A stretch of 64,000 nt of DNA from Pseudomonas sp. MF4836 (GTDB lineage Bacteria; Pseudomonadota; Gammaproteobacteria; Pseudomonadales; Pseudomonadaceae): NCBI RefSeq assembly GCF_002018875.1, contig NZ_MVOL01000011.1, forward strand, positions 124,001 through 188,000, written 5' to 3'. The position numbers were made by a program, and so were the translations under genes. Of the stretch, positions 23,275 to 56,309 are shown in pieces. Position 1 is the first letter of the stretch; each line of letters opens with the position of its first letter. A model generated the notes under the pieces. The model worked only from the letters and a program-made list of their open reading frames with translations. It was not told where the DNA came from and ran no database searches.

Positions 23275-23480
23275 GGCGCGGAGCGACGGAAAAGCCTTAT
23301 AGAACGGAGATTTAGGAGACTAAAAGAAGGGGCAACGAGAATTTGGATGAGGTTTTGACCCATTAACTTGAAGCAGCTCAATGCGCTGCACTCAGAAGTT
23401 AAAGTGATTTGTTAAGAGTAAGATTTTTTCGGTATTACAAAAGCGCTTCTGCCAGTGATTCCAGCAGGGAGGGAAAAGGT
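23275..23480. other. intergenic stretch between rnpB 3' end and mraZ promoter
   Basis: AT-richer than its surroundings. No open frame of note. It must hold the 3' processing or termination signal of rnpB, but I see no clear hairpin with a T tract. Confidence 0.5.
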
Positions 23481-23832
23481 GGAGAGTCGATCTGTAAGCC
23501 GGGTTCTGTCGAGGACAGTCATTCCTCTACGATGGCCATCACTGGACATCTTTAGCAACCTACCCGGTTCCAGCGCGGGCCACGCCTTGGAACCCTATTT
23601 GGTCTTGCTCCGAGTGGGGTTTACCTAGCCACGAACTGTTGCCAGACGTGCGGTGCGCTCTTACCGCACCTTTTCACCCTTACCGGCACCGAAGTGCTTA
23701 GGCGGTTATTTTCTGTGGCACTTTCCGTAGGCTCACGCCCCCCAGGCATTACCTGGCACTCCGCCCTATGGAGCCCGGACTTTCCTCCCCCCCCTAATTT
23801 TCATAGAGGGCAGCGACTGTCCAATCGACTCT
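23481..23832 (-). ncRNA. rnpB: RNase P RNA (class A)
   Basis: On the minus strand the RNA begins AGAGTCGATTGGACAGTCGC. The universally conserved GAGGAAAGTCCGGGC is near the 5' end and the typical ACAGAACCCGGCTTACAG is near the 3' end, closing the P1 helix with GATCGACTCTCC. The length of about 352 nt is normal for gammaproteobacteria. It is the catalytic subunit that removes tRNA 5' leaders. Recognition is by conserved sequence; the ends are accurate to a few bases. Confidence 0.97.
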
Positions 23833-53524: not shown

Positions 53525-54523
53525 ATGGATCCGCGCAGTGAAGTACTGCTTCGCCAGGCTGAATTGTTTCAAGGTTCGCTGCTGCTGGCGGGCCTGCCCG
53601 CCGACGACTTGCTGGGTCGGCTGCCCGATGCCCATGGCTGGTGCTGGCACGCCGGTGACCAGGCGGCGCTCGACGCTCGTTTTGCCGAACGCAGCCATTT
53701 CGGAGTGGATGCTCCGCAGCGAGGGTTCGAAAGCGCCGTGCTCTTCCTGCCCAAATCCAAGGACCTGACCGACTACCTGCTCAATGCCCTGGCCTCGCGC
53801 CTGGCTGGGCGCGAGCTGTACCTGGTGGGTGAAAAGCGTAGCGGTATCGAAGGCGCGGCCAAGCAACTCAACCCCTTCGGCAAACCACGCAAACTCGACA
53901 GCGCGCGGCATTGCCAGCTGTGGCAAGTCACCGTCGCCAATGCCCCCGAAGCGGTAACCCTGGAAAGCCTGGCCCAGGAATACGAATTGCCCCTGGCCGA
54001 AGGCCCGCTCAAGGTCATCAGCCTGCCCGGCGTATTCAGCCACGGCCGGCTGGATCGCGGCAGCGCACTGTTGCTGGAACATCTGGACAAACTGCCCAGC
54101 GGCCACCTGCTGGACTTCGGCTGTGGCGCCGGCGTCCTGGGGGCGGCGGTCAAGCGCCGCTACCCGCATAACAGCGTGACGCTGCTCGACGTCGATGCCT
54201 TCGCTGCCGCCAGCAGTCGCTTGACCCTGGCTGCCAATGGCCTGGAAGCCGAGGTCCTGACCGGCGACGGAATCGACGCCGTGCCCATGGGTTTGAACGC
54301 CATCCTGAGCAACCCGCCGTTCCATGTCGGGGTTCACACCGATTATCACGCCACCGAAAACTTGCTGAAAAAAGCAGCCAAACATCTGAAAAACGGCGGC
54401 GAACTTCGGCTGGTTGCCAATAGCTTCCTGCGTTACCAACCGCTGATCGAAGAGCATCTGGGGCCATGTTCGATCAAAGCCGAAGGCCAGGGTTTTCGCA
54501 TTTACCGGGCCAAGCGCGGGTAA
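53525..54523 (+). CDS. rsmC: 16S rRNA (guanine1207-N2)-methyltransferase
   Basis: The product is 332 residues. Duplicated methyltransferase architecture: degenerate N-terminal half, active C-terminal half with SAM motif [15 protein letters not shown] and the catalytic NPPF in [10 protein letters not shown]. It methylates N2 of G1207 on the assembled 30S subunit. Same strand as hprA, 33 bp downstream, with AAGGAGC ahead of the ATG. Confidence 0.95.
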
Positions 54524-54581
54524 GCGGCTTTTGCAAAAGAAGGCTTGCCGAATGGATTTTGCCTAGGCAGAATCCGCTCCG

Positions 54582-54777
54582 TCCTAGGGGAGTAGTCTCC
54601 CACGAGCGCCACGCTCGTCCGGCATGCGTCAACATACTTGGTCAACAGACCATGGCGCATGCGACCCAAGAGTCCGCACAGACGGACCGCAGGGTTTGAC
54701 AAGACCTATGACACGAACACCTTACCCGGGGCGGGGAGGCTGTACGTGTCATAGCCGTGTCGACCCGCCCCTTAGGA
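54582..54777 (+). ncRNA. yybP-ykoY manganese riboswitch
   Basis: Both signature loops are present: GGGGAGTAG at 54587-54595 and GGGGAGGCT at 54733-54741. P1 is TCCTAGGGG (54582-54590) with CCCC-T-TAGGA (54768-54777, one bulged T). A perfect 9-bp stem TATGACACG / CGTGTCATA (54707-54715, 54745-54753) carries the second loop. The intervening insert of about 110 nt contains the ACGAGCG/CGCTCGT hairpin (54602-54618). The aptamer is known to bind Mn2+. It precedes the UPF0016 Mn exporter, whose Shine-Dalgarno AGGA (54774-54777) lies inside the 3' strand of P1. Confidence 0.85.
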
Positions 54778-54785
54778 AAAACCTG

Positions 54786-55370
54786 ATGCTGGATTCTCTA
54801 CTCGTTCCTACCGCAGTCGTTGCCTTGGCCGAAATCGGCGACAAGACGCAGCTGCTCGCCCTGATTCTCGCCGCGCGCTTTCGCAAACCCTGGCCGATCA
54901 TCGCCGGTATCGTCGCCGCAACCCTGGCCAACCATGCGGCCGCCGGTGCGGTGGGTGCCTGGTTTGGCAGCTTCTTCTCCGACGTCACCCTGCACTGGAT
55001 CCTTGCCGCCAGCTTTGCCGCCACGGCCTTGTGGACCCTGGTTCCCGACAAAATGGACGAAGACGAAGCCAGCACCGCACGCAAGTTCGGGCCGTTCCTG
55101 ACCACCCTGATTGCGTTCTTCCTCGCGGAAATCGGTGACAAGACCCAGATCGCCACAGTCATGCTCGCGGCGCAGTACCCTGAACTGTGGTTGGTCATCA
55201 TCGGCACCACCCTGGGCATGCTGATCGCCAACGTACCTGTGGTACTGGCCGGCAACTTCGCGGCAGACAAACTGCCCCTGACCCTGATCCGTCGCCTGGC
55301 GGCATCGGCGTTCTTCGTCCTGGCCCTGGTTGCGGTGTACAAGGCCATGCAAAGCAGCGGGTGGGTGTAA
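54786..55370 (+). CDS. mneA: UPF0016/GDT1 family manganese exporter
   Basis: The product is 194 residues with six membrane helices. The two family motifs E-x-G-D-K-(T/S) are present: ALAEIGDKTQLLAL near the N-terminus and FFLAEIGDKTQIATV in the middle. Relatives (MneA, TMEM165, GDT1) move Mn2+ and Ca2+, and bacterial members export Mn2+. ATG 54786 follows the riboswitch by 8 nt; the longer frame from 54624 would translate the riboswitch itself and is rejected. Confidence 0.93.
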   Translation: MLDSLLVPTAVVALAEIGDKTQLLALILAARFRKPWPIIAGIVAATLANHAAAGAVGAWFGSFFSDVTLHWILAASFAATALWTLVPDKMDEDEASTARKFGPFLTTLIAFFLAEIGDKTQIATVMLAAQYPELWLVIIGTTLGMLIANVPVVLAGNFAADKLPLTLIRRLAASAFFVLALVAVYKAMQSSGWV

Positions 55371-55383
55371 GCAAAACGGAGGG

Positions 55384-55400
55384 AGGCGCCTGGGGCGCCT
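55384..55400 (+). terminator. hairpin after mneA
   Basis: AGGCGCC / GGCGCCT hairpin just behind the stop. Only weak T content follows, so termination efficiency is uncertain. Confidence 0.5.
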
Positions 55401-55456
55401 TCATCGTCGGCGAGCCGGCCGCTGCACAATCATGCAGAGGCCGGTGTTGCCGGGGA

Positions 55457-55479
55457 TGGCGTCACAGGACGTGACGCCA
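55457..55479 (-). terminator. hairpin after the M48 lipoprotein
   Basis: Perfect 9-bp stem TGGCGTCAC / GTGACGCCA with a 5-nt loop AGGAC, six bases beyond the stop of the convergent M48 gene. There is no T tract. Confidence 0.5.
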
Positions 55480-55484
55480 GGCCA

Positions 55485-56309
55485 TCAGGACTTCTTGGCT
55501 TGCTGATACAACGGCATGACCTTGGGGATTGCCGCCTGCAACGAGCTGATCCGGCTAGTGGACGCCGGGTGAGTGCTGAGGAATTCCGGCGGCGCGCCTT
55601 CCGACGCCTTGCTCATCTTGTTCCACAAGCTGATCGCCGCGTTCGGGTTGTAGCCGGCACGGGCCGCCAACTCCAGGCCGATCAGGTCCGCTTCGTTTTC
55701 GTTGTCGCGGCTGTTGGGCAAGGTCATCAGCAGGTTCACGCCGTTATCACTCAGGTCCACAGCGCCTTTGGGGGCACCGGCGAGCAAGGCGATCTGCTTC
55801 AACGCCCCCACACCGTAGGCCTTGGACATGGCTTCACGGCCATGCTCGCGCAGGGCGTGGGCGATTTCATGGCCCATCACCGCGGCGATTTCATCGTCGG
55901 TCAGTTGCAGCTTGTCGATCAGGCCGGTGTAGAAAATGATCTTGCCGCCAGGACCACAATTGGCGTTGAGCTCATCGCTCTTGATCAAGTTGACTTCCCA
56001 CTTCCACGCCGCGCAATCCGGGCGGAAGGTAGGGGCCTGGGCGACCAGGCGGTCGGCAATTCTCTGCACGCGCTTGGCGGTGGCGCTGGTCTTGTCCAGC
56101 ATGCCCTTGTTGCTCGCATCACCCAGCGTCTGCTGGTAGTCCTGGGCATAGGACTGGTTGACCTCATCGCTCGACAGCATGCTGAACATGTACTGCTTGC
56201 GATCGACACCCACGGCGCCGCCACTGGTGGTGTTCACGGCCTGACAACCACCGAGCAGCAGGCTGGTACCCAGTGCACATGCAAGCAATGACTTCTTCGA
56301 CTTCATCAT
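55485..56309 (-). CDS. M48 family metalloprotease lipoprotein (LoiP/BepA-like)
   Basis: The product is 274 residues. Lipobox LLGGC (Cys about 22), then an M48 protease domain with the zinc motif HEIAHALREHG and the third ligand Glu in NENEADLIGLELAARAGYNP. It probably acts in the periplasm on misfolded or damaged envelope proteins. Two ATGs are in tandem; the one at 56309 is about 7 nt after GGAG. Confidence 0.9.
   Translation of the reverse strand: MMKSKKSLLACALGTSLLLGGCQAVNTTSGGAVGVDRKQYMFSMLSSDEVNQSYAQDYQQTLGDASNKGMLDKTSATAKRVQRIADRLVAQAPTFRPDCAAWKWEVNLIKSDELNANCGPGGKIIFYTGLIDKLQLTDDEIAAVMGHEIAHALREHGREAMSKAYGVGALKQIALLAGAPKGAVDLSDNGVNLLMTLPNSRDNENEADLIGLELAARAGYNPNAAISLWNKMSKASEGAPPEFLSTHPASTSRISSLQAAIPKVMPLYQQAKKS

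Follow-up and report, generated by a model that had tools for sequence, protein, structure and literature searches.

Manganese riboswitches of the yybP-ykoY class (RF00080) are known as transcriptional switches in Lactococcus lactis, Xanthomonas oryzae and Bacillus subtilis, where the invading strand is said to be part of a terminator. In X. oryzae, Mn2+ stabilises the switch helix P1.1 against invasion by a downstream strand, and the 3′ half of loop L1 together with the switch helix reads GAGACCAGGGAU (PMC6754395, in the portion consulted). A translational member is known as well, the related Escherichia coli mntP leader, which is Mn-ON for translation (PMC11647493, excerpt). Vibrio cholerae mneA is induced by Mn (PMC7380456, excerpt). 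In the excerpts of this literature, the step at the ribosome site of translational Mn2+ riboswitches is described merely as the site becoming accessible.

We analysed a leader of this kind in a 64-kb stretch of DNA (the whole of which we call the window). It shares with the RF00080 class the aptamer score, the loop signatures, the P1 switch helix and a downstream exporter gene. The RF00080 match ends at 54697, whereas the anti-P1, inner and D:E helices of the window and the pairing of strand A with the Shine-Dalgarno (A:SD) lie outside it. Stabilisation of P1.1 by Mn2+, as demonstrated for X. oryzae in the consulted part of PMC6754395, would be common to this leader and the transcriptional switches, but no terminator-like site follows here. 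The mntP leader of E. coli K-12 likewise has an anti-P1 strand downstream, and before that strand stands GCUGGGG, which can form a helix with CCCCGGU immediately in front of the Shine-Dalgarno; however, its sequences and its exporter are different, and by eye it has no clear A:Shine-Dalgarno duplex.

Materials and Methods

The leader pattern was found at 151 of 171 loci, the other 20 being without it. We retained 146 unique genomes and then 145 leaders (L135 was skipped), 132 from the family and 13 from outside. Folding with P1 forced used 131 of the 132 family leaders (without L106). For the P1 alignment 47 leaders were chosen and 45 used, the long inserts of L051 and L170 having led to their omission; the platform alignment, made from sequence alone, holds 59 leaders, namely those 47 and 12 of the 13 from outside the family (without L091). 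The crossing-helix survey started from 31 leaders, 10 of which, E. coli alx included, lacked the pattern, and dropped L024, L071, L074 and L085 as badly placed or showing no clear helix; the remaining 17, joined by 9 leaders from outside the family and another 9 that represent it, make up the 35-leader set. The strand positions of L065 were set by hand, and L216 and L065 were kept despite a weak shuffle result. When other leaders were folded, the E. coli mntP row was unused, L218 and L063 gave no start, and the start of L222 is doubtful. The shuffle control leaves kinship in, and a swap test between 17 genera was used beside it.

Results

A genuine RF00080 aptamer upstream of a GDT1 exporter

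A cmscan search matched RF00080 at 54574-54697 of the forward strand with 55.8 bits (E 4.8e-12; gathering score 45). The original prediction had called a yybP-ykoY element here and proposed a covariance search as a check; the score above the cut-off bears the call out. The features of the aptamer and its target are as follows.

54581-54588, forward strand: strand A, the 5′ side of P1, the switch helix that the literature calls P1.1, GTCCTAGG; covariation
54587-54595, forward strand: 5′ half of loop L1, GGGGAGTAG
54698-54706, forward strand: 3′ half of loop L1, the true second signature, GACAAGACC; equivalent to GAGACC in the consulted part of PMC6754395
54705-54712, forward strand: strand B, 3′ strand of P1, CCTATGAC; covariation and swap test
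54774-54777, forward strand: Shine-Dalgarno AGGA, 8 nt before the ATG
54786-55370, forward strand: Mn2+ exporter of the GDT1/UPF0016 (MneA, TMEM165) family, 194 aa; Pfam PF01169, E 9.2e-43

The class signature is present. The L1 halves GGGGAGUAG and RAGACC (54587-54595 and 54698-54706) close onto P1, cmscan aligned the conserved CAACAUACUUG ... CAUGG core, and many columns of that core vary little or not at all among 45 leaders. The sequence words of the original prediction, GGGGAGTAG at 54587-54595, GGGGAGGCT at 54733-54741 and AGGA at 54774-54777, are all where it had placed them, but its reading of GGGGAGGCT as the second aptamer loop did not hold: the true 3′ half was identified as GACAAGACC through the accessible text of PMC6754395. 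We rejected GGGGAGGCT as an aptamer loop; it is strand D plus inner helix and belongs to the platform described below. What had looked like a 110-nt insert between the loops is really aptamer interior, the true halves being separated by 102 nt (54596-54697) inside the RF00080 match. In L051 and L058 the aptamer arm between the L1 halves carries a long insert with the ends CCGTAGGAAAA and TTTTACACGGAA. The manganese-sensing aptamer is a genuine member of the RF00080 class, and we infer that it binds Mn2+. RF00080 was found at E<=0.001 in 295 of the 298 sampled genomes of the genus (292 over the cut-off), so that the element itself is ordinary.

The exporter gene lies directly downstream of the aptamer, and PF01169 matches two stretches of it. 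GDT1/UPF0016 is the family of the V. cholerae exporter MneA. The target gene is thus a Mn exporter, as originally proposed, and its control by the switch is predicted. On the other side, the gene at 53525-54523 encodes an RsmC-like methyltransferase that scores below the NCBIfam cut-off for RsmC itself. The window also holds a class A bacterial RNase P RNA at 23479-23832 of the reverse strand (338 bits).

P1 closes 61 bases before the Shine-Dalgarno

The counterpart of the Xanthomonas GAGACCAGGGAU in the window is AAGACCTATGAC (54700-54711), which covaries with the 5′ strand. This correspondence places P1 at 54581-54588 with 54705-54712, where GTCCTAGG pairs with CCTATGAC with one mismatch. 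P1 cells were paired at 97.5% in the 45 aligned family leaders, with both-sided changes at 3 of 7 pairs: at one pair 23 of the 45 have A-U and 21 have G-C, and at another 37 have G-C and 6 have A-U. When P1 was compared to 500 shuffles, three of five measures were unmatched and the other two were reached by 40 and 53 shuffles. In the swap test between 17 genera, the native excess of A:B was reached in 0/5000 permutations. The Shine-Dalgarno, whose strand the original prediction had taken as the 3′ strand of P1, is separated from the aptamer closure by 61 bases, and P1 covaries with 54705-54712 instead.

Three conserved helices form a platform behind the aptamer

Downstream of P1 we found an anti-P1 hairpin, an inner helix and a helix D:E, which we refer to as the platform.

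54706-54715, forward strand: 5′ arm of the anti-P1 hairpin, overlapping strand B, CTATGACACG
54717-54723, forward strand: 5′ arm of the inner helix, partner of 54736-54743
54728-54735, forward strand: strand D, partner of E, crossing the anti-P1 hairpin, GGGGCGGG
54736-54743, forward strand: 3′ arm of the inner helix; covariation
54745-54754, forward strand: strand C, 3′ arm of anti-P1, CGTGTCATAG
54764-54771, forward strand: strand E, partner of D or of A, CCCGCCCC

Across the 59 aligned platforms, 96.7% of cells were paired in anti-P1 (54706-54715/54745-54754; both-sided changes at 8 of 10 pairs), 79.5% in the inner helix (7 of 7 pairs) and 96.3% in D:E (54728-54735/54764-54771; 6 of 8 pairs), which is one of the two best-paired platform helices. 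Jointly the three helices had 91.8% of cells paired versus 80.6% in shuffles, none of which (0/500) reached the native value on any of the five measures, and the paired cells dropped from 91.8% to 56.7% or less when the partners were slid along. In the swap test between 17 genera, the native values of B:C and D:E were reached in 0/5000 permutations, versus 349 to 1777/5000 for four control combinations. Only 4 of 20,000 random windows paired with B as well as strand C does. Strand D lies inside the anti-P1 loop and strand E beyond the hairpin, so D:E crosses anti-P1. RNAalifold, run on the platform alignment, returned D:E alone, presumably because it cannot hold crossing helices.

The survey of 35 leaders, which included other gammaproteobacterial leaders and E. 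coli mntP, turned up similar helices, and native partners were not equalled by swapped ones (0/5000). The search gives the best complementary run wherever present, so a helix in every row arises partly by construction, and it is the swap test that serves as the control. The leader's own D was the best or second best partner for its E strand in 14 of the 35, and shuffled E strands did as well in 128/200 trials for L071, 152/200 for L216 and 124/200 for L065. The genome of the window has a second RF00080 match (L002, G000:C12:65832-66003; 32.3 bits, below the cut-off), which by eye precedes an MntP-like reading frame. It shares the anti-P1 strand and a crossing helix, AGUCGGGC/GCCCGACU, adjoining the start region, but the sequence differs, and when its start and ribosome site were assigned manually, the model had P1 act on the start region in the opposite direction.

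Strand A can pair with the Shine-Dalgarno

The 5′ strand of P1 can pair with the ribosome site, a point that the original prediction had recognised.

54768-54777, forward strand: segment complementary to 54582-54590, including the Shine-Dalgarno, CCCCTTAGGA

The duplex between TCCTAGGGG (54582-54590) and CCCCTTAGGA has one bulge and an energy of -14.9 kcal/mol. Such complementarity is not rare: among 20,000 random 24-base stretches of the window 192 matched it, and it was equalled by 6/206 stretches with AGGA at the same offset. When pairs were swapped between the 17 genera, the native value was reached in 27 or 30 of 5000 permutations, depending on which of two region definitions was used. 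The trend had the same direction in the 13 leaders outside the family, where it missed the 5% level (312/5000).

We also scored co-adaptation for A strands unlike that of the window, taking the window type as a reference and not as a proven ancestor; negative values mean that the derived A gains more from the Shine-Dalgarno region of its own leader than from regions of the window type. Of 14 genus-and-type combinations, 12 gave a negative value; no gain was seen in g16 and g19. In absolute terms the derived A paired better on its own Shine-Dalgarno region than the window-type A in 9 of the 14 and not in the other 5. Derived forms such as TCCTGAG in g7, g10 and one g11 lineage and TCCTGGG in g16, g17 and g11/g15 seem, among the matches listed, to have several independent origins on the MneA protein tree. 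At the level of single bases, leaders with A at 54586 have T before AGG plus A or T in 74 of 75 readable cases, versus 2 of 26 for leaders with G at 54586; those 26 have the pairing C before AGG in 5 cases and A, which needs a shift or bulge, in 19. TAGGA is absent in 14 of the 88 leaders with TCCTA. Among close relatives, L015 and L034-L037 have CCCCTGGAA in place of TAGGA and keep strand E, a natural test of A:SD pairing. Taken together, the comparative evidence argues moderately for A:SD, and less strongly than for A:B, B:C, the inner helix and D:E.

A conserved promoter-like geometry and no terminator-like site

Upstream of strand A, the best-scoring -35/-10 pair consists of two boxes.

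54545-54550, forward strand: -35-like box TTGCCG
54568-54573, forward strand: -10-like box CAGAAT

The geometry of the best pair, with a 17-nt spacer and 7 nt to strand A, was found in 112 of 145 leaders, and the mean best score was 7.8 of 12 versus 6.2 in shuffles. A strict consensus scan scored TTGCCG/CAGAAT below threshold and called no promoter there. Conservation of this geometry 7 bases before strand A suggests that transcription probably starts near 54580 (about 54579-54581), with strand A at the 5′ end of the transcript. The placement turns the upstream palindrome into promoter spacer DNA. The original prediction had offered a helix at 54551-54568 as the possible real switch; the segment belongs to the conserved spacer, and across the groups it shows no general conservation of folding. 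Upstream foldability was clearly above shuffles only in g9 (mean z -3.8) and g12 (-2.9); it was weak in the genus of the window (-1.3), the single g76 sequence gave -2.1, and the other 25 groups lay between -1.0 and +1.0. In some genera the spacer (54545-54573; the same place in L040-L062) contains an inverted repeat, GCCCAAGTCC..GGACTTGGGC in g9 and GCCGGG..CCCGGC in g12, whose arms vary between genera yet remain complementary; the repeat may serve as an operator or mark where the upstream transcript has its 3′ end.

No terminator-like site was detected in 54400-55500 (mean 0.7 in shuffles), and an intrinsic terminator overlapping the 3′ strand of P1 was rejected on this basis. Translational control, to which Rho may contribute as it does at E. 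coli mntP, is therefore the likely output.

Folding gives mixed answers on the state of the ribosome site

We folded the leader with growing 3′ ends. P1 pairing was 0.77-0.78 from 54715 to 54745, except for 0.19 at 54735; anti-P1 was at 1.00 from 54755; and A:SD reached 0.81-0.97 at 54775-54790 and fell to 0.14-0.84 once the transcript passed 54795. In the nested model of the window leader, the Shine-Dalgarno was unpaired at 0.25 with P1 versus 0.24 with anti-P1, and opening it cost 4.2 kcal/mol versus 5.0 kcal/mol. With P1 forced in 131 family leaders, the site opened in 69 and closed in 6, the rest changing by less than 0.1. Among the other gammaproteobacterial leaders, forcing P1 closed the Shine-Dalgarno in L220, L224, L065 and L002 and opened it in L215, L217 and L064. 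We rejected a thermodynamic proof of ON and OFF states, as the differences were small and of mixed sign with P1 or anti-P1 forced. The folding being weak and mixed, homology and regulatory sense, rather than the model, are the grounds for the ON polarity.

On average, the unconstrained ligand-free ensemble lay about 11.7 kcal/mol below the ensemble with P1 forced. A difference of this size against P1 means that the model needs a kinetic decision: Mn2+ must act in the brief interval before strand C is made, or must slow the invasion, an effect demonstrated for P1.1 in Xanthomonas.

Discussion

The best explanation overall, which we hold at about even confidence, is a manganese-ON translational yybP-ykoY switch whose strands exchange partners. 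When Mn2+ is high, the aptamer would close P1 (A:B), keeping strand A occupied and off the ribosome site; E would pair with D or stay free, and with AGGA open the exporter would be translated. Without Mn2+, the later-made strand C would take B into the long anti-P1 hairpin, which would also tie up D, and the freed strand A would pair through TCCTAGGGG with E and the Shine-Dalgarno, blocking the ribosome. For this scheme we infer not only Mn2+ binding, as above, but also the ON polarity, the translational level, the ligand state of D:E and the co-transcriptional choice.

The original prediction, which put the Shine-Dalgarno inside P1 so that Mn2+ would switch the exporter off, or else gave an upstream helix the switching role, now appears highly improbable. 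The complementarity of 54582-54590 with 54768-54777 that it relied on is present; yet P1 covaries with 54705-54712, and the upstream segment is promoter spacer. An exporter shut off by high Mn is not implied, because A:SD pairing excludes P1 rather than forming part of it. The apparent paradox of a reversed switch rests on a misplaced P1, and with P1 in its true position it disappears.

A serious rival, which we think somewhat improbable, assigns D:E to the OFF state: without Mn2+ anti-P1 would form, the G-rich strand D in its loop would pair with CCCGCCCC next to the Shine-Dalgarno, and the resulting H-type pseudoknot would block the ribosome until Mn2+ breaks it by drawing strand B into P1. 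The crossing helices D:E and B:C do covary in the same sequences, and E ends close to the Shine-Dalgarno, 2 nt before it in the window, 2-3 nt in 106 and 0-4 nt in 137 of the 145 leaders. In some distant leaders, such as L220, the helix even extends into the Shine-Dalgarno, which fits an OFF-state role better. A rough energy estimate with a pseudoknot penalty of 9.6 kcal/mol places the pseudoknot (D:E plus anti-P1) below the nested anti-P1 state in 70/145 leaders, the window (-3.6) among them, but this is only about half of them. Moreover, the linker from C to E (9 nt in the window and down to 5 elsewhere) must span a long stem, and D:E alone is compatible with P1, so that release by Mn2+ is not obvious. 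P1 together with D:E lay below P1 with E unpaired in 124/145 leaders, a comparison biased toward D:E because the second state forbids every pairing of E. For this family we favour D:E as the pairing that E adopts in the bound state. A broader form of the pseudoknot reading can be put forward tentatively: gammaproteobacterial translational Mn2+ riboswitches may have in common a crossing helix that lies beyond the Rfam match, in which a strand from the anti-P1 loop pairs with one immediately before the Shine-Dalgarno. The helix, which would create a ligand-free pseudoknot that blocks the ribosome, recurs with changing sequence in presumed mneA and mntP leaders.

It is also conceivable, though unlikely, that the main control lies in Rho-dependent termination or in translation-coupled mRNA stability, access to the Shine-Dalgarno being a partial one. 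At the E. coli mntP riboswitch there is termination by Rho, and its relief by Mn2+ is partial in vivo (PMC11647493, in the part consulted), and the window leader is free of terminator-like sites. The conserved pairing beside the Shine-Dalgarno, however, points to translation as the level at which control first acts.

Our literature search, which covered titles and abstract openings, returned no description of the platform, and absence from print is not claimed; nor were its helices found described in the consulted portions of PMC13274385, PMC9603457, PMC11647493, PMC6754395, PMC7380456 and PMC9495176. The riboswitch class is known, and the anatomy of the platform is a testable variant of it for which the literature searched, in the portions covered, gave no description. 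It provides a concrete map of the route by which the state of a translational Mn2+ riboswitch may be relayed to the ribosome site, and D:E, kept by compensatory changes across Pseudomonadales leaders, gives pairs that are directly testable.
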